A stretch of 64,000 nucleotides of DNA. Source: an uncultured Lachnospiraceae bacterium. Lineage in GTDB: Bacteria > Bacillota > Clostridia > Lachnospirales > Lachnospiraceae. The stretch lies in the NCBI GenBank assembly GCA_944376125.1, contig CALWBQ010000034.1, positions 62,001 to 126,000 on the forward strand, in the 5' to 3' direction. Under the pieces are notes generated by a model that made no database searches, was not told the DNA's origin, and saw nothing but the letters and a program-made list of their open reading frames with translations. This document shows positions 1 through 8,650 of the stretch, in pieces. Positions within the stretch are counted from its first letter, which is position 1; each line of letters opens with the position of its first letter. The translations under genes and the position numbers were made by a program.

Positions 1-2991
1 ATCATGGTGAGGCGGCGGAGAAATCAGGCTGACGCCCGGAGTTGAGTGGCGGGTCTTGGCAATCCAGGGATAAACCTTTCCTGCAGGAAGATGGCCGCCC
101 TCCCCAGGCTTAGCGCCCTGAGCCATCTTGATCTGGATCTCCTTAGCACTTACCAGATAGCGGCTAGTGACGCCGAACCGGCCGGAAGCCACCTGCTTGA
201 TGGCTGAAGAGCGATCGTGGTCTGTCCCCATAGAGTCCAGACGCTCCTCACTCTCACCGCCCTCTCCGGTATTGGACTTTCCGTGAATATGGTTCATGGC
301 AAGAGCCAGAGCCTCATGGGCCTCCTGGGAGATGGAGCCGTATGACATTGCTCCCGTCTTAAACCGGACCATGATAGACTCCTCGCTCTCTACCTGCTCC
401 AGAGGAATCCCTTTCTTGGGATATGCAAATTCCAGCAGGCTTCTGACATTTCCGCAGTTTTCCTGATCTGCCATCTCCGTGTATTTTTTAAACAGGCTGT
501 AATCCTTCTGCCAGGTGGATTTCTGGAGCAGATGAATGGTGTTGGGATTGTACCTGTGCTCTTCCCCGTCGCTTCTTGCCTTGTGGAAGCCTTCGCTGTC
601 CAGGGTCAGATCTGTAGAGAGCCCCAGAGGATCAAAGGCCCTGGAATGAAGGTCATCTGCCGCCTTTGCAATATCTTCCAAGGTGATCCCGCCGATTCTG
701 CTGGTTGTTCCGGTAAAGTACTGATCCACTACTTCCTCGGAGATGCCGATAGCCTCAAAAATCTGAGAGCCCTGATAGGACTGGACTGTGGAGATACCCA
801 TTTTAGAAGCAATCTTTACGATTCCGCTGAGGACAGCTTTATTATAGTCTTCCACTGCCGCATAGTAATCCTTGTCCAACATTCCGTCGTCTACCAGCTT
901 GCGGATCGTCTCCTGAGCCAGGTAGGGATTGACACCGCAGGCTCCGTAGCCTAAAAGCGTCGCAAAATCGTGGACTGTCCTAGCTTCCCCGGTCTCCAGA
1001 ATGATCGCCAGAGAAGTTTTCCTTCTAGTTCTGACCAGATACTGGTGAACCGCAGAGACTGCCAGCAGGGACGGAATCGCCACATGGTTCTCATCCACGC
1101 CCCGGTCAGACAGAATCAGGATATTGCACCCATCCCGGTACGCCTTATCCACTTCAACAAAAAGATTTTCGATAGCCCTCTTCAGCCGGGTGCTCTTGTA
1201 GTACAGAATCGGCACCGTCTCCGGGTGAAAACCAGGCTTATTCATATATTTGATCTTCAAAATATCTGTGCTGGTAAGGATCGGGTTGTTGATTTTCAGC
1301 ACCTGGCAGTTCTCTGGCTTTTCTTCCAAGAGATTGCCGTCCCGCCCGGCATAGACCGTGGTGCTGGTGACTACCTCTTCACGGATGGCATCGATAGGAG
1401 GGTTGGTTACCTGGGCAAACATCTGGCAGAAATAATGAGACAGCGGATGGTACTGATCCGACAGAGCTGCCAGAGGGGTATCTGCCCCCATAGCGCCTGT
1501 AGCCTCAGAGCCGTGGAGCGCCATATTGTAGATCACATCCCTGGTATCCTCATAGGTATATCCAAATGCCTTTTGAAGCCGTGCCAGGCTCTCATCGCTG
1601 TAGCGCTCCACGCTTTTATTGGGGATCGGCAGATCCTTCAGTTTGACCAGACCTCCATCCAGCCACTCGCCGTAAGGCTTCCTGGTGCTGTAATACCGCT
1701 TCAGCTCTTCATCCCGGTACAATTTCCCCAGCCGGGTATCGACCAGCAGCATCTTTCCAGGATGCAGCCGTTCCTTTACAATGATCTTTTCCTCCGGGAC
1801 GTCCAGAACCCCAACCTCAGAGGACAGGATCAGCATCCCATCGCTGGTAATGTAATATCTGGACGGGCGGAGGCCATTCCTGTCCAAAACTGCCCCCATC
1901 ACATCGCCGTCAGAAAAAAGAATGGACGCAGGGCCGTCCCAGGGCTCCATCATAGTGGCATAATACTGGTAAAAATCTCTTTCCTCCTGGGGCATAGCCT
2001 TGTTGTTGTCCCAGGGTTCCGGGATCGCGATCATCACTGCCAGAGGCAGATCCATACCATTCATCATCAAAAATTCCAAGGTATTGTCCAGCATAGCAGA
2101 ATCAGATCCGCCGCTGTGAATGACTGGGAGGACTCTGTGAAGATCCTCGCCAAGGCAAGAAGATTCCATCGTCTCCTCCCTGGCCAGCATCTTATCTGCA
2201 TTTCCCTTGATGGTATTGATTTCTCCGTTGTGGACAATCAGACGGTTGGGATGTGCCCTCTCCCAGCTTGGGTTTGTGTTCGTGCTGAATCTGGAATGAA
2301 CAATGGCAATGGCCGACTCATAATCCGGATCCATCAGATCTGCAAAAAAGGTTCTCAGCTGTCCGACCAAAAACATCCCTTTATAAACTACCGTGCGGCT
2401 GGACAGAGAAACCACATAGGTATTGTCATTGCTCTGTTCAAAAATACGTCTGGCAATGTAGAGCTTTCTGTCAAATTCCAGACCAGGCGCCACACCCTCT
2501 GGTTTTTTGATAAAAGCCTGCATGATATAGGGCATACATTCCCGCGCTTTGTGTCCCAAAACTTCCGGGCATACCGGAACTTTCCTCCAGCCCAGCAGTT
2601 CCATGCCTTCTTTCTCTACGATGATCTCGAACATTTTCCGGGCCTGGCCCCTCTTTAGCTCTTCCTGGGGGAAAAAGAACATTCCGACTCCGTATTCCCG
2701 CTCTCCGCCCAGGGCAATGCCCGCTTCTCGGCATACTTTGGAAAAGAATTTGTGAGAAATCTGCAGGAGGATGCCGACACCATCCCCAGTTTTCCCCTCC
2801 GCATCTTTTCCGGCCCTGTGCTCCAAATGTTCTACAATGTGCAGAGCCTGATCTACAGTGTCATGGCTTTTGATGCCTTTCATCTGGACCACGGCGCCGA
2901 TGCCGCAGTTATCGTGCTCAAATTCTGGCCGATAGAGTCCGCTGTTCTTTCCATATTTCCCGGAAGGCTGGTTCTGGATTTTCATTTTCAT
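1..2991 (-). CDS. gltB: Glutamate synthase large subunit (GOGAT alpha), C-terminus cut by the window edge
   Basis: Makes glutamate from glutamine and 2-oxoglutarate in the cytoplasm. The frame is open from 2991 to base 1, giving 997 residues of a protein usually near 1500. The N-terminal class II amidotransferase domain begins with [11 protein letters not shown], so Cys29 would be the nucleophile exposed after removal of a short propeptide. The central domain follows, and the last visible residues, [12 protein letters not shown], are a hallmark of the FMN-binding synthase domain. The ATG shares four bases (ATGA) with the pyrG stop, so the two are probably one transcript and translationally coupled. 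The missing part should hold the FMN and Fe-S sites and the structural C-terminal domain. The identification is secure; only the 3' end is missing. Confidence 0.96.
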
Positions 2992-4613
2992 ATGGCTTCT
3001 CCCTTCTGTCTGTTTTTATACTCTTCCGCTGCCCTGACAAAGCCGGCAAAGAGCGGATGGGGACGGTTAGGTCTGGATTTAAATTCTGGATGGGCCTGAG
3101 TGGCAATAAAGAATGGGTGATCCTTCAGCTCCGCCATCTCCACGATCCGGCCGTCCGGCGACAAGCCTGACAGCACCATCCCGTGATCCTTCAAAACATT
3201 TCTATAATCGTTATTGACTTCATAGCGGTGTCTGTGACGTTCAAAAATTTCTTCTGTCCCGTACAATTCACGCGCTTTGCTTCCCTCTGCCAAAACACAG
3301 GGGTAGGCCCCCAGTCTGAGGGTTCCTCCGATATCTTCCAGCCCATTCTGCTCCGGCATCAGGGCAATTACTGGATGAAGAGTATCCGGCGCCAGTTCAA
3401 TGCTGTGGGCATCTGCATAGCCCACTACATCCCGGGCAAATTCTACAATAGCAAGCTGCATTCCAAGGCAGAGCCCCAGATAGGGCACCTTGTGAACTCT
3501 TGCATACTCGATAGCAGCAATTTTTCCTTCCGTTCCTCTGGTTCCAAAACCTCCAGGTACCAGGATTCCATCTACATCCTTCAGGATTTCCCCGGCATTT
3601 TCCCTTGTCACAGTCTCGGAATCCACCCATTTCATGCGAACCGCGCAGCGGTTTGCGATTCCTCCATGTTTTAAGGCTTCCACCACGCTCAGGTAGGCAT
3701 CGTGGAGCTGGATGTATTTTCCCACCAGGGCGATAGTCACTTCTGTCTCCGGCGTCTTCAGCGCTGCCACCATCTCTTCCCAATCCCGCAGATCTGGCTG
3801 GCGCTGCGGCAGCTTCAGACATTCCAGAACCACCTGGGCCAGATGTTCTTTTTCCATAGCCAGAGGAGCTTCATACAGATATTCTACATCCAAATTCTGG
3901 AGGACATGGCTGCTGGGAACATTGCAGAACAGGGCGATTTTGTCCTTGATCTCCTGCGTCAGCGGCTTTTCAGAGCGGCAGACCAAAATATCCGGCCAAA
4001 TTCCCATACCCTGAAGCTCCTTTACACTGGCCTGGGTCGGCTTTGTCTTCATCTCCCCTGATGCCTTCAAATAAGGGATCAGCGTCACATGAATCAGAAT
4101 AGCATTTTCATGGCCTACATCATGCTGAAACTGGCGGATGGCCTCTAAAAACGGCTGGCTCTCAATATCGCCTACCGTTCCCCCCACCTCAATGATAGCA
4201 ATCCGGTCCTCATCCGGCGTCTTTCCCCGGTAAAACCGGCTTTTAATCTCATTGGTAATATGGGGAATCACCTGAACGGTTCCGCCATTGTAGTCTCCAT
4301 GGCGTTCCTTTTGGAGGACACTCCAGTACACCTTCCCGGTGGTAACATTGGAATTCCGGTCCAGGCTCTCATCGATAAATCTCTCGTAATGGCCCAGATC
4401 CAGGTCTGTCTCCGTCCCGTCATCCGTCACAAAAACTTCCCCGTGCTGAATTGGATTCATCGTACCGGGATCTACGTTAATATAGGGGTCAAACTTCTGC
4501 ATGGTAACACTGTATCCCCTTGCTTTTAAAAGTCTTCCCAGGGATGCCGCGGTAATTCCTTTTCCCAGACCGGACACCACGCCGCCTGTCACAAATACGT
4601 ATTTCACTGCCAT
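2988..4613 (-). CDS. pyrG: CTP synthase (glutamine-hydrolysing)
   Basis: Converts UTP to CTP using ATP and ammonia from glutamine. At 541 residues it is the family's normal length. The N-terminal synthetase domain opens with [16 protein letters not shown] (P-loop). The C-terminal class I amidotransferase domain has the nucleophile Cys near residue 380 in YLGLCLGMQ and the His-Pro-Glu partner in [11 protein letters not shown] chose the ATG at 4613 because GGAGGG sits 7 bases upstream; the open frame extends five codons further to a TTG that overlaps this ribosome binding site. It is the first gene of a pyrG-gltB unit and overlaps gltB by 4 bases. A promoter and an intrinsic terminator lie ahead of it, suggesting attenuation. 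Confidence 0.97.
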
Positions 4614-4741
4614 AACTTTTCCCTCCAAAATTGATCAATCAAGAAGCCTGCCCCGCAGGACTAGGCCGCACCAACGGCATTGGCCCGCCGCAGGGCGTTA
4701 TCTGCGGAGCATTTTTTTCATAGGGAACGCTCTTTCCTATG

Positions 4742-4781
4742 AAAAAAAGCGTCAGCATGCTCTTTGAAAAGCATCTGACGC
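4742..4781 (-). terminator. Intrinsic terminator inside the pyrG-gltB leader (putative attenuator)
   Basis: Read on the minus strand, GCGTCAG-ATGCT pairs with AGCAT-(one bulged base)-CTGACGC and is followed directly by seven T. It lies between the pyrG promoter (4824-4852) and the pyrG start, with no gene upstream on this strand, so it should act as an attenuator. Immediately downstream a second perfect 13-bp hairpin (4712-4724 with 4736-4748) uses the T-tract itself as one arm, so the two structures compete. The controlling signal is not visible. Confidence 0.7.
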
Positions 4782-4823
4782 CATTGTCCGAATCATATTT
4801 TATAATTTGAAATTCAAGTCTAA

Positions 4824-4876: not shown

Positions 4877-4904
4877 TTGACAAGAAAAAAGTTTGGTGTA
4901 TAAT
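4877..4904 (+). promoter_or_regulatory. Sigma-A type promoter of glnA-purF
   Basis: TTGACA (4877-4882) and TATAAT (4899-4904) are both perfect consensus hexamers with a 16-base spacer. The start point should lie near 4911, just at the base of the first leader hairpin. So strong a core promoter fits control exerted later, by termination in the leader. Confidence 0.8.
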
Positions 4905-4913
4905 ACTGCCCAT

Positions 4914-4959
4914 AAGCAAGGTCGCTTGGAACATGGAGTTCCTGCCCCTTGCTTTTTTT
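4914..4959 (+). promoter_or_regulatory. ANTAR-like two-hairpin leader and terminator upstream of glnA
   Basis: Hairpin P1 is AAGC/GCTT (4914-4927) with a six-base loop AAGGTC; hairpin P2 is GGAAC/GTTCC (4928-4942) with loop ATGGA. Both loops have A at position 1 and G at position 4, the signature of RNAs bound by ANTAR antiterminators. A third, exclusive structure pairs AAGCAAGG (4914-4921) with CCTTGCTT (4947-4954) and runs into a seven-T tract, forming an intrinsic terminator. Stabilising P1 would therefore prevent termination. The P2 loop is five bases, not the canonical six. No ANTAR protein is encoded in the window. Known: the ANTAR loop rule. Inference: its use here. Confidence 0.6.
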
Positions 4960-5078: not shown

Positions 5079-7178
5079 ATGAGCAAAAACATTCCTGAAC
5101 TTTACGGAAGCCTGGTCTTTAACGATAAGATCATGCGTAATAAGCTGCCAAAAGACGTCTACAACGCCCTCCAGAAAACTATCCAGACGGGTACCCACCT
5201 GGAGCTTGACGTAGCAAACGCTGTGGCCGTTGCTATGAAAGAATGGGCTGTAGAAAATGGGGCTACCCATTTTACTCACTGGTTCCAGCCCATGACCGGC
5301 ATTACAGCAGAAAAGCATGACAGTTTCATCACCCCCACCGGAGGCGGAGAGATTATTATGGACTTTTCCGGAAAAGAGCTGGTAAAGGGCGAACCAGACG
5401 CCTCCAGCTTCCCTTCCGGCGGTCTGCGGGCTACCTTCGAGGCCAGAGGCTACACAGCCTGGGATCCTACTTCTTACGCATTTATTAAGGACCAGACTCT
5501 GTATATTCCCACTGCTTTCTGCTCCTACACCGGGGAAGCTCTGGATAAAAAGACGCCGCTCCTCCGCTCTATGGAAGCACTCAATAAAGAAGCCACACGG
5601 CTGCTGCATATTTTGGGCCACGATGAGGTAAAAAGCGTCAATACAACCGTAGGGCCTGAGCAGGAATATTTCCTGATCGACAAAGCCCTGTACCGGGCAA
5701 GGAAAGATCTGGTATTCTGCGGCAGAACCCTGATCGGCGCCGCGCCGCCAAAGGGCCAGGAAATGGAAGATCACTATTTCGGCGTTCTGAAGCCCAGAGT
5801 ATCTGCCTACATGCACGAGCTGGATGAAGAGCTGTGGAAGCTGGGTGTTCCCGCAAAAACTAAGCACAATGAGGTAGCTCCTGCCCAGCACGAACTGGCT
5901 CCGGTTTATGATACCACCAATGTAGCTGTTGACCACAATCAGCTTACCATGGAAATGATGAAAAAAGTAGCTGATAAGCATGATCTGGCCTGCCTGATCC
6001 ATGAGAAGCCTTTTGAAGGCATCAATGGCAGCGGCAAACACAACAACTGGTCTATCAGTACGGACACGGGCCTAAACCTGTTAGATCCCGGCAAAAATCC
6101 AGGCAGCAACCTGGTATTTCTGGTATTCCTCACCGCTGTCATCAAAGCTGTAGATGAGTATGCTGACCTGATGCGCATCTCTGTTGCCAGTGCCGGAAAC
6201 GATCACCGTCTGGGAGCCAATGAAGCTCCGCCGGCTATTGTGTCAATATTCCTTGGCGATGAGATCAACCGGGTCGTTGAATCTCTGGAACAAGATTCTG
6301 AATTCCACAACCATGCTCAAGTGCAGATGGAGACAGGCGCCCATGTCCTTCCTCACTTTATGAAGGATAATACAGACCGGAACCGCACTTCACCTTTTGC
6401 TTTTACCGGAAATAAGTTTGAGTTCCGTATGCCTGGTTCCTCTCTCTCTGTGGCTGGCCCCAACATTGTCCTGAATACCGCGGTCGCTGAGGAGGTTCGC
6501 CAGTTTGCTGATGCTCTGGAAGGAACGCCGTCTGAGGATATGGAGAAGGCTGTTCGCAAGCTGTTAAAGAAAGCCATCTCTGATCACAAACGGATTATCT
6601 TCAACGGCAACGGATATACCGATGAATGGGTTGAAGAGGCAAAACGCCGCGGGCTGTACAACCTGAAGGCTCTTCCTGATGCTATGCCCTATTTTATCGC
6701 TCCCAAAAATGTGGAGCTGTTTACGAAGCATCACATTTTTACAGAGGGTGAGATTCACGCCCGGTATGATATTTTGCTGGAAAACTACAGCAAAGCGATT
6801 CATGTGGAATCCAAAACCATGGTGGAAATGCTTCAGAAAGACCTGATGCCCCCGCTTCTGGCCTTTACCGGAGACACTGCCCAGGCTGCTGCCCAGAAGA
6901 AAGCCTTTGCACCTTCTATCTCTACGGCATCTGAAGAAAAACTGGTGGCTGAGCTCTCTTCTCTGTATGATACCCTTGCAGCGGGTGTTGAAAAGCTGGC
7001 GGCTGATACCGCTCAGGCAGAACATATCTCCGATCCGCTGGAGGCTGCAATCTATTACTGCCGCACTGTCCTGGAGCAGATGAATACTTTGCGGGTGTCA
7101 GCAGACAAGGCGGAATCTTTGATTCCAGATACTTATCTGCCTTATCCTACCTACGATGAACTGCTTTTCTCAGTATAA
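5079..7178 (+). CDS. glnA: Type III glutamine synthetase (GlnN family)
   Basis: Makes glutamine from glutamate, ammonia and ATP. The 699-residue length and motifs PTGGGEIIMDF (about 87-97), KHNEVAPAQHELAP (about 262-275), GSGKHNNWS (about 320) and NDHRLGANEAPPAI (about 375) identify the long type III class typical of Bacteroides and Clostridia, not the 450-residue type I enzyme. The ATG follows AAAGGAG by 8 bases. purF begins 29 bases after the stop on the same strand, so the two are likely co-transcribed. Expression is probably governed by the leader terminator at 4914-4959. Confidence 0.96.
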   Translation: MSKNIPELYGSLVFNDKIMRNKLPKDVYNALQKTIQTGTHLELDVANAVAVAMKEWAVENGATHFTHWFQPMTGITAEKHDSFITPTGGGEIIMDFSGKELVKGEPDASSFPSGGLRATFEARGYTAWDPTSYAFIKDQTLYIPTAFCSYTGEALDKKTPLLRSMEALNKEATRLLHILGHDEVKSVNTTVGPEQEYFLIDKALYRARKDLVFCGRTLIGAAPPKGQEMEDHYFGVLKPRVSAYMHELDEELWKLGVPAKTKHNEVAPAQHELAPVYDTTNVAVDHNQLTMEMMKKVADKHDLACLIHEKPFEGINGSGKHNNWSISTDTGLNLLDPGKNPGSNLVFLVFLTAVIKAVDEYADLMRISVASAGNDHRLGANEAPPAIVSIFLGDEINRVVESLEQDSEFHNHAQVQMETGAHVLPHFMKDNTDRNRTSPFAFTGNKFEFRMPGSSLSVAGPNIVLNTAVAEEVRQFADALEGTPSEDMEKAVRKLLKKAISDHKRIIFNGNGYTDEWVEEAKRRGLYNLKALPDAMPYFIAPKNVELFTKHHIFTEGEIHARYDILLENYSKAIHVESKTMVEMLQKDLMPPLLAFTGDTAQAAAQKKAFAPSISTASEEKLVAELSSLYDTLAAGVEKLAADTAQAEHISDPLEAAIYYCRTVLEQMNTLRVSADKAESLIPDTYLPYPTYDELLFSV

Positions 7179-7207
7179 TGGCGGCTGACAGAAAGGGATT
7201 TTGATCC

Positions 7208-8650
7208 ATGATAGACCAATCTTTTGATAATGACCCTGCTTTTGCCGATGATAAGCCCAGGGAAGAATGCGGCGTCTTTGGCATCTACGATCTGGACGGC
7301 GGCGAAACCGCCGAAACTATCTGCTGCGGGCTCATGGCTCTCCAACATAGAGGCCAGGAGTCCTGCGGCATCGCCGTTTCCGACACTTCCGGCCCCCGCC
7401 GCAATACATGTTTTCATAAAGGTCTCGGACTGGTCTCTGAGGTCTTCAAGTCGGAAACTCTGTCAAAACTCCACGGGAACCTGGGCATCGGCCATGTCCG
7501 TTATGCCACCTCCGGTTCTACCACAGCGGAAAATGCACAGCCGCTGGTTCTGAACTATGTCAAAGGAACCATCACTCTGGCCCACAACGGAAATCTGGTC
7601 AATGCCGCTGCGCTCAGAAGAGAAATGGAATACACCGGCGCTATCTTCCACACAACCGTTGACTCGGAGGTGATCGCCTTCCAGATTGCCCGGGAACGGC
7701 TGTCTGCTCCCACTGCAGAGGAAGCTGTGCGCCGGGCGGCTTCCAAGCTCCACGGTGCCTACGCCCTGGTCATCACCAGTCCCAGGAAACTTATCGGAGT
7801 TCGGGATCCCTACGGCCTGAAGCCTCTGTGCCTGGGACGCCGCGGGCATGCCTGGATCCTGGCATCAGAGAGCTGTGCGCTCTCTTCCGTGGGGGCTGAA
7901 TTCATCCGGGATATTCTTCCCGGTGAGATTGTCACAATTACAAAAGACGGTGTGTCTTCCTCCTTCATTTCCTCCTTAGGAGCCAGGGCACACTGTGCTT
8001 TTGAATATATCTACTTTGCCCGGCTGGACAGCACCATAGATGGGGTCAATGTCTACGAGGCCAGAACCCGTGCAGGAGCCTGTCTGGCAAAAGCCTGTCC
8101 AGCTGCGGCAGACCTTGTGGCCGGTGTCCCGGAATCCGGGATCCCGGCGGCTCAAGGTTATGCCAAGGCCCTCGGAATTCCGTTTGGAACAGTCTTTTAT
8201 AAAAACAGCTATGTGGGCCGAACCTTTATCAAACCCAGTCAGGCTGAGAGGGAAAACAGTGTAAGGCTGAAGCTGAGTGTGCTGAAATCTGTGGCGGAAG
8301 GCAAACGCATCGTGCTGGTAGACGATTCCATTGTCCGTGGGACGACCATGGCAAATTTGATCTCAATGCTGAAACAGGCGGGTGCAAAATCCGTCCATGT
8401 ACGAATCTCGTCCCCGCCTTTTTTATATCCATGCTATTTTGGAACCGATGTTCCTACTGGAGGCCAGCTGATCGCCTCGTCTCACTCCAGCGATGAAATC
8501 TGCCGGATGATCGGAGCCGATTCTCTGGGCTATCTCCCTCTGGAAAGCCTTTCGGAGATGGCAGGCGGCCTCCCTCTGTGCTGCGCCTGTTTTGATGGCC
8601 GCTATCCAATGGAAGTCCCCAGGCAAAATATCCGGAACATTCTGGAATGA
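7208..8650 (+). CDS. purF: Amidophosphoribosyltransferase
   Basis: Catalyses the first committed step of purine synthesis, PRPP plus glutamine to phosphoribosylamine. The N-terminal Ntn amidotransferase starts with EECGVFGIYD after a propeptide of about 20 residues, so Cys21 is the expected mature N-terminal nucleophile. The PRPP-binding motif IVLVDDSIVRGTT lies near residue 365. Cysteines in AHCAFEY, PCYFGTD and LCCACFDG match the [4Fe-4S] ligands of the Bacillus-type enzyme. Length (480) is normal. It follows glnA by 29 bases; pairing a glutamine maker with a glutamine user is suggestive. It is usually found in a pur operon, which is absent here. Confidence 0.95.
   Translation: MIDQSFDNDPAFADDKPREECGVFGIYDLDGGETAETICCGLMALQHRGQESCGIAVSDTSGPRRNTCFHKGLGLVSEVFKSETLSKLHGNLGIGHVRYATSGSTTAENAQPLVLNYVKGTITLAHNGNLVNAAALRREMEYTGAIFHTTVDSEVIAFQIARERLSAPTAEEAVRRAASKLHGAYALVITSPRKLIGVRDPYGLKPLCLGRRGHAWILASESCALSSVGAEFIRDILPGEIVTITKDGVSSSFISSLGARAHCAFEYIYFARLDSTIDGVNVYEARTRAGACLAKACPAAADLVAGVPESGIPAAQGYAKALGIPFGTVFYKNSYVGRTFIKPSQAERENSVRLKLSVLKSVAEGKRIVLVDDSIVRGTTMANLISMLKQAGAKSVHVRISSPPFLYPCYFGTDVPTGGQLIASSHSSDEICRMIGADSLGYLPLESLSEMAGGLPLCCACFDGRYPMEVPRQNIRNILE

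Follow-up and report, generated by a model that had tools for sequence, protein, structure and literature searches.

The model of transcription antitermination by ANTAR proteins rests on two hexaloops, as in the RNA targets of EutV in the eut operon of Enterococcus faecalis. Deleting the first hairpin abolished induction; the linkers between eut hairpins are 5-12 nt long, and a 3-nt linker abolishes induction (PMC3369931). The structure of EutV (2022) showed that the dimer holds only one hexaloop per binding event, and the minimal site was redefined as a single hexaloop. That study still stated that antitermination needs both hexaloops, and it did not settle whether there are functional sites with a single hexaloop (PMC8934654). 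For another protein, NasR, the affinity for a P2 hairpin on its own is about 12 uM (PMC7496416).

Earlier work already proposed that ANTAR proteins control nitrogen genes in clostridia (PMC4676874, PMC3369931). Ramesh et al. 2012 predicted ANTAR targets upstream of glutamine and glutamate synthases using a dual-hairpin model (PMC3369931), and nitR from Clostridium acetobutylicum and a GS-GOGAT-linked ANTAR gene from C. thermocellum (Clo1313_2030) have been described (PMC4676874). Our search of the open-access literature found no paper on a single-hexaloop antiterminator.

The glnN-purF leader has one ANTAR-type hairpin

We analyzed a 64,000-nt stretch of DNA from an uncultured Lachnospiraceae bacterium ("the window"). 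The glnN-purF leader and the genes behind it contain these features:

4877..4904, + strand: sigma-A type promoter of glnN-purF, TTGACA-16-TATAAT (12/12 consensus match)
4914..4927, + strand: predicted antiterminator hairpin P1, AAGC-AAGGTC-GCTT (from stem covariation and loop conservation)
4914..4959, + strand: intrinsic terminator, mutually exclusive with P1 (arms 4914-4921 and 4947-4954; T-tract 4953-4959)
4928..4942, + strand: terminator apex, GGAAC-ATGGA-GTTCC, present in both folds; it has a 5-nt loop and is not an ANTAR hexaloop
5079..7178, + strand: glnN, type III glutamine synthetase, the gene downstream of the leader (Pfam GSIII_N, 5e-81)
7208..8650, + strand: purF, amidophosphoribosyltransferase (ORF with a glutamine amidotransferase domain)

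purF begins 29 nt past glnN, and the two genes are presumably co-transcribed. The hexaloop of P1 lies at 4918-4923 (A1 is 4918 and G4 is 4921) and is closed by a C-G pair on a 4-bp stem. The arms of the terminator are AAGCAAGG/CCTTGCTT, followed by T7. The 58-nt leader folds as the terminator with a minimum free energy of -19.0 kcal/mol (z = -2.98; none of 200 shuffled sequences was as good), versus -8.6 kcal/mol for the alternative state with P1 and the apex hairpin. An initial annotation of this DNA had proposed a consensus promoter and a mutually exclusive terminator with a U-tail, and both are borne out. It had also proposed two adjacent hairpins with A1/G4 loops, AAGGTC and ATGGA. We agree about the AAGGTC hairpin (P1) but not about ATGGA, which belongs to the apex of the terminator and abuts P1 with a linker of zero.

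A scan with Rfam 15 gave only chance matches in the leader region of the window, and no matches at the gathering score in the corresponding loci of 14 relatives or in locus L003, the adjoining part of this genome. We considered a riboswitch and set it aside: there is no ligand pocket beyond the 6-nt loop, and the unit (hairpin plus terminator) tracks a protein gene.

The unit is conserved and covaries in relatives

Among 80 loci that encode close relatives of GlnN, about 60 have the same combination of hairpin and terminator after the promoter in the glnN leader, which is far more than chance would give. The consensus unit, which is present in most leaders, is [T/A]AAGC-AANGGC-GCTTTG, then a short variable apex (GGA...TCC), and then A/G-A/G-GGCGCC-TTTTT. 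The 5' arm of the consensus terminator is formed by the hexaloop and the 3' arm of P1. The leaders of the window and of L005 build it from the 5' arm of P1 and the loop, so the terminator has been rewired while the hairpin is unchanged. The window's own terminator has diverged from the relatives' consensus, and its leader scores only 17.6 bits with our covariance model.

Using 59 units from glnN leaders, and comparing them with shuffles and slid controls, we found 13 double-change cells in the P1 stem (2.6 in shuffled alignments). The terminator in the relatives has 63 (12.7 shuffled). Across clostridial families, the P1 stem has 33 double-change cells (9.1 shuffled), and stems such as AAAGC/GCTTT, ACAGC/GCTGT, and AAGAC/GTCTT replace each other. 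All 77 model matches have a loop of six nucleotides and a C-G closing pair, and A1 and G4 are each present in 76 of 77 (the exceptions are L077 and L046); these counts are partly circular because the pattern for the seed alignment demanded A1 and G4, but the two exceptions mean that the model tolerates deviation. The initial annotation proposed checking whether the A and G of the loops are conserved, which is true of P1 but not of ATGGA: the sequence and length of the apex loop vary among relatives. On average, P1 is weak (-3.8 kcal/mol) and the whole unit is strong (-22.6 kcal/mol), which calls for a factor acting in trans.

One hexaloop instead of two

The distance from the end of the -10 box to the base of P1 has a median of 9 nt and is 7-12 nt in nearly all of 63 glnN leaders. 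Spacing is also 7-12 nt in most leaders of amtB, gltB, asnB, carA, and purF, and it is similarly short in other clostridial families. So, the predicted start of transcription is within a few nucleotides of P1, which leaves no room for an upstream hexaloop unless transcripts really start elsewhere. We also looked for strict A1/G4 hexaloops with C-G closure other than P1: of 93 units, only 2 have one upstream and 4 have one in the terminator region. Strict hexaloops are present downstream in 12 of 93, complete tandem units among them.

The unit shares several features with the dual-hexaloop ANTAR sites: an A1/G4 hexaloop (just the one), the C-G closing pair, and the exclusion of an intrinsic terminator. 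It does not have two tandem hairpins with a linker of 5-12 nt, and complete tandem units are found in a minority of cases only. The relatives' leaders lack the paired hairpins too, which by the initial annotation's own standard counts against the pair, but their single hairpin is strongly conserved.

Before a few genes, the complete unit is repeated two or three times (L150, where the copies are about 82 nt apart, and L056, L057, L070, L076, and L083). These look as if several attenuators had been placed in series.

The unit occurs with ANTAR genes

ANTAR genes are present in 108 of 120 Lachnospiraceae genomes. At E ≤ 1e-3, we found units in 85 of these 108 genomes and in 0 of the 12 genomes without ANTAR (Fisher P = 8e-8; this and the p-values below overstate independence, as the genomes are related, and the E-values from the model are rough). 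All 12 of the ANTAR-less genomes have kept glnN, and none has a unit before it. At the level of the class, units are found in 70 of 117 genomes with ANTAR versus 8 of 99 genomes without (P = 2e-16); these eight have a unit-like match and no detected ANTAR gene. Among 50 genomes that were chosen via their glnN loci, the single ANTAR-less genome also lacks the unit. When these sets are pooled, 38 of the 49 glnN genomes that have ANTAR carry the unit directly before the gene, as against 0 of the 13 that lack ANTAR (Fisher P = 3e-7).

Some Butyrivibrio have ANTAR and no unit directly before glnN. In L071, L072, and L074, there is a unit 1.8-1.9 kb upstream of glnN, where it may precede the first gene of the operon.

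A predicted nitrogen regulon

We built a covariance model solely from the glnN leaders of other species and ran it blind over the 3.29-Mb genome. The window's glnN leader ranked first and the leader of a type I glnA ranked second; the E-values of these matches are weak (0.24 and 0.86), so the argument is from their rank. A strict pattern, searched across the whole genome, matched only the type I glnA leader and the pyrG-gltBD leader, with 0 matches in the control. Weak model matches elsewhere in this genome (L087-L095) lack the hexaloop unit or have a poor stem, and we took them to be ordinary terminators. The additional features are:

4742..4793, - strand: second unit, with hairpin GAC-AATGGC-GTC and a terminator, in the leader of the divergent genes pyrG-gltBD (pattern search)
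2988..4628, - strand: pyrG, CTP synthase (ORF), which comes first in the operon pyrG-gltB-gltD-glnA(type I)-nitR, divergent from glnN
1..2991, - strand: 5' part of gltB; the operon leaves the window via gltD and type I glnA to nitR
L003 8756-8806, - strand: unit in the leader of type I glnA, in a gltD-glnA gap of about 270 nt, with its own promoter
L003 6798-7340: nitR, the ANTAR gene of the divergent operon; it is 10 kb away from glnN, a little beyond the edge of the window

With a promoter and unit of its own, glnA-nitR can be driven separately from the rest of the operon (autoregulation). In the pyrG-gltBD leader, the predicted promoter is farther upstream of the unit than usual. A second type I glnA-nitR pair adjoins carB (L004 7020-9010, - strand); neither inspection by eye nor the model nor a hairpin scan showed a unit in the leader of this pair.

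Elsewhere in Lachnospiraceae, the best units stand before glnN, gltB, amtB, asnB, carA, purF, and a gene for LL-diaminopimelate aminotransferase. The targets in the relatives are ammonium and glutamine genes. In L146, glnN, purF, pyrG, gltBD, glnA, and nitR are all in one locus with four units. The unit seems to mark out a main regulon for nitrogen assimilation in Lachnospiraceae and other Clostridia.

Two other contexts deserve mention. A unit in L120 precedes a protein with PPDK_N (the N-terminal domain of pyruvate phosphate dikinase), and the protein in L162 has a similar start; these are outside the obvious nitrogen set. In L099, a transposase-like ORF (IS200 type, by eye) is directly 3' of a perfect unit and possibly splits the unit from its gene.

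NitR is the candidate regulator

The initial annotation attributed control to an unseen ANTAR protein, but a candidate is encoded close by, in the divergent operon. This genome has two ANTAR genes, and each is directly 3' of a type I glnA. Type I glnA adjoins an ANTAR gene in all 22 loci that we examined (L147 included).

NitR matches the ANTAR domain (PF03861) at 60.5 bits, versus a cut-off of 27.3. Its predicted structure has a receiver fold and ANTAR helices, with high confidence (mean pLDDT of 91.5). The fold comparison (Z = 16.7, rmsd 1.9, 111 aligned) is for the receiver domain only, and the ANTAR assignment is from Pfam and phmmer. By alignment, the receiver has glycine at the position of the phospho-acceptor aspartate and methionine at the lysine of beta-5, so we do not expect NitR to be phosphorylated. 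Pfam reported no receiver domain in NitR, and NitR does not qualify as a two-component response regulator, as judged by the phospho-acceptor aspartate and the acidic pocket.

Of EutV's RNA-contacting residues, those of the recognition core are kept in NitR (R142, K149, E160, and M172) and others are changed: Y164 is replaced by H (AmiR also has H here), R168 by Q, R175 by G, and R177 by N/S (S in the L003 protein). These changes could reflect a single-hexaloop mode of binding or could weaken the assignment. By analogy to AmiR-AmiC and NasT-NasS, NitR is likely under the control of a protein partner. We infer that the obvious candidate for the partner is glutamine synthetase, its constant neighbor.

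L138 encodes a divergent NitR (6991-7560, - strand; 17% identical to the protein from the window's genome) between type I glnA and pyrG. The leader that accompanies it has the hairpin GAAC-AATGGC-GTTC.

Proposed mechanism and alternatives

Given these sequence comparisons, we believe that the glnN-purF leader is very likely a single-hexaloop antiterminator that is worked by the pseudo-receiver ANTAR protein NitR and serves nitrogen control. The broader claim of the initial annotation, ANTAR-type antitermination of glnN-purF in nitrogen control, is supported by the hexaloop signature, the two ANTAR proteins, and the co-occurrence and linkage of the unit and the ANTAR gene. By default, the RNA switch would stop transcription, and the ANTAR protein encoded nearby probably opens it. 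The leader would be a transcription attenuator whose default state is off. The transcript would open with one ANTAR hexaloop hairpin, and before about 20 further nucleotides had been added, a much stronger terminator would reuse the bases of P1 and halt RNA polymerase. If nitrogen or glutamine were scarce, NitR would bind and hold the hexaloop, the terminator would be blocked, and glnN-purF would be transcribed. The same unit is predicted to control pyrG-gltBD and glnA-nitR (autoregulation) in this genome and gltB, amtB, asnB, carA, and purF in relatives. We infer that NitR is the factor, which way and by what signal control runs, and that one hexaloop is sufficient. A more ambitious proposal, which strikes us as tentative, is that one hexaloop at the very 5' end suffices for protein-dependent antitermination without a recruitment hairpin, hitherto considered essential, with type I glutamine synthetase signalling to NitR as a trigger enzyme. 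This synthetase, whose gene comes before nitR in every locus examined, would take hold of NitR's pseudo-receiver or let it go, and would so set a clostridial nitrogen regulon.

We considered three other explanations. P1 might be read by another RNA-binding protein, or it might stabilize the 5' end without any protein, and ANTAR genes might co-occur with it for other reasons. Hairpins at the extreme 5' end can stabilize mRNAs, and the absence of several of EutV's contact residues from NitR fits this explanation. But the invariant chemistry of the hexaloop is the signature of ANTAR sites, the unit is missing before glnN in each of the 12 ANTAR-less genomes, and an ANTAR gene lies inside the nitrogen operon that bears the units, so we consider this explanation to be unlikely. 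That the leader is a canonical dual-hexaloop site, with the AAGGTC and ATGGA loops bridged by a dimer, seems quite improbable to us. In this one sequence, both loops do begin with A and have G as their fourth base, but a 5-nt loop in the terminator apex with no linker is not what is seen in eut, the ATGGA loop varies in relatives, and extra strict hexaloops are rare.

A strong terminator close behind a promoter could also be an ordinary terminator or insulator that is not regulated. We give this almost no credence: although the consensus terminator does not include the 5' arm of P1, this arm is conserved and covaries, and the unit recurs in the leaders of nitrogen genes and tracks the presence of ANTAR.

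Comparison with known systems

Like the EutV antiterminators of E. faecalis, the glnN unit has an A1/G4 hexaloop with C-G closure, and the hairpin overlaps the 5' side of an intrinsic terminator, with the same predicted logic of antitermination (PMC3369931, PMC8934654). P1 even fits the eut 13-mer, AGCAANGRRGCUY, except at RR (PMC3369931). In contrast, eut sites have two hexaloops (PMC3369931), while the glnN unit has one and the upstream recruitment hairpin is absent. Unlike in eut, the stem of the unit is often longer (up to 6 bp) and the hairpin is a few nucleotides from the predicted transcript start. Also, EutV is phosphorylated, which we do not expect for NitR.

NitR resembles AmiR of Pseudomonas (with AmiC) and NasT (with NasS) in joining a pseudo-receiver to ANTAR and in being presumably controlled by a partner instead of by phosphorylation, and it shares with AmiR the histidine at the position of Y164 of EutV. 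Unlike in those systems, we saw no homolog of AmiC or NasS beside NitR, where the constant neighbor is type I glutamine synthetase, and the predicted RNA target is a single hexaloop.

Other similar regulators are NitR of C. acetobutylicum and Clo1313_2030 of C. thermocellum, which are also ANTAR antiterminators encoded with genes for glutamine and glutamate synthases (PMC4676874). The part of that paper we draw on describes the regulators and not their RNA targets, whereas our analysis delimits both the RNA target and the regulon by sequence. The predictions of Ramesh et al. 2012 concern the same functional class of genes, but with a dual-hairpin model (PMC3369931). What appears to be new is the promoter-proximal, single-hexaloop architecture, along with its breadth, its covariation, and its regulon. 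Our reading conflicts with the rule of two hexaloops for antitermination, and it makes the function of single-hexaloop sites testable. It provides a large and well-conserved set of these sites, placed as predicted antiterminators in clostridia of the gut and elsewhere and accompanied by a neighboring regulator gene, and a nitrogen regulon that would work via an RNA element missed by Rfam 15 in the loci that we scanned.
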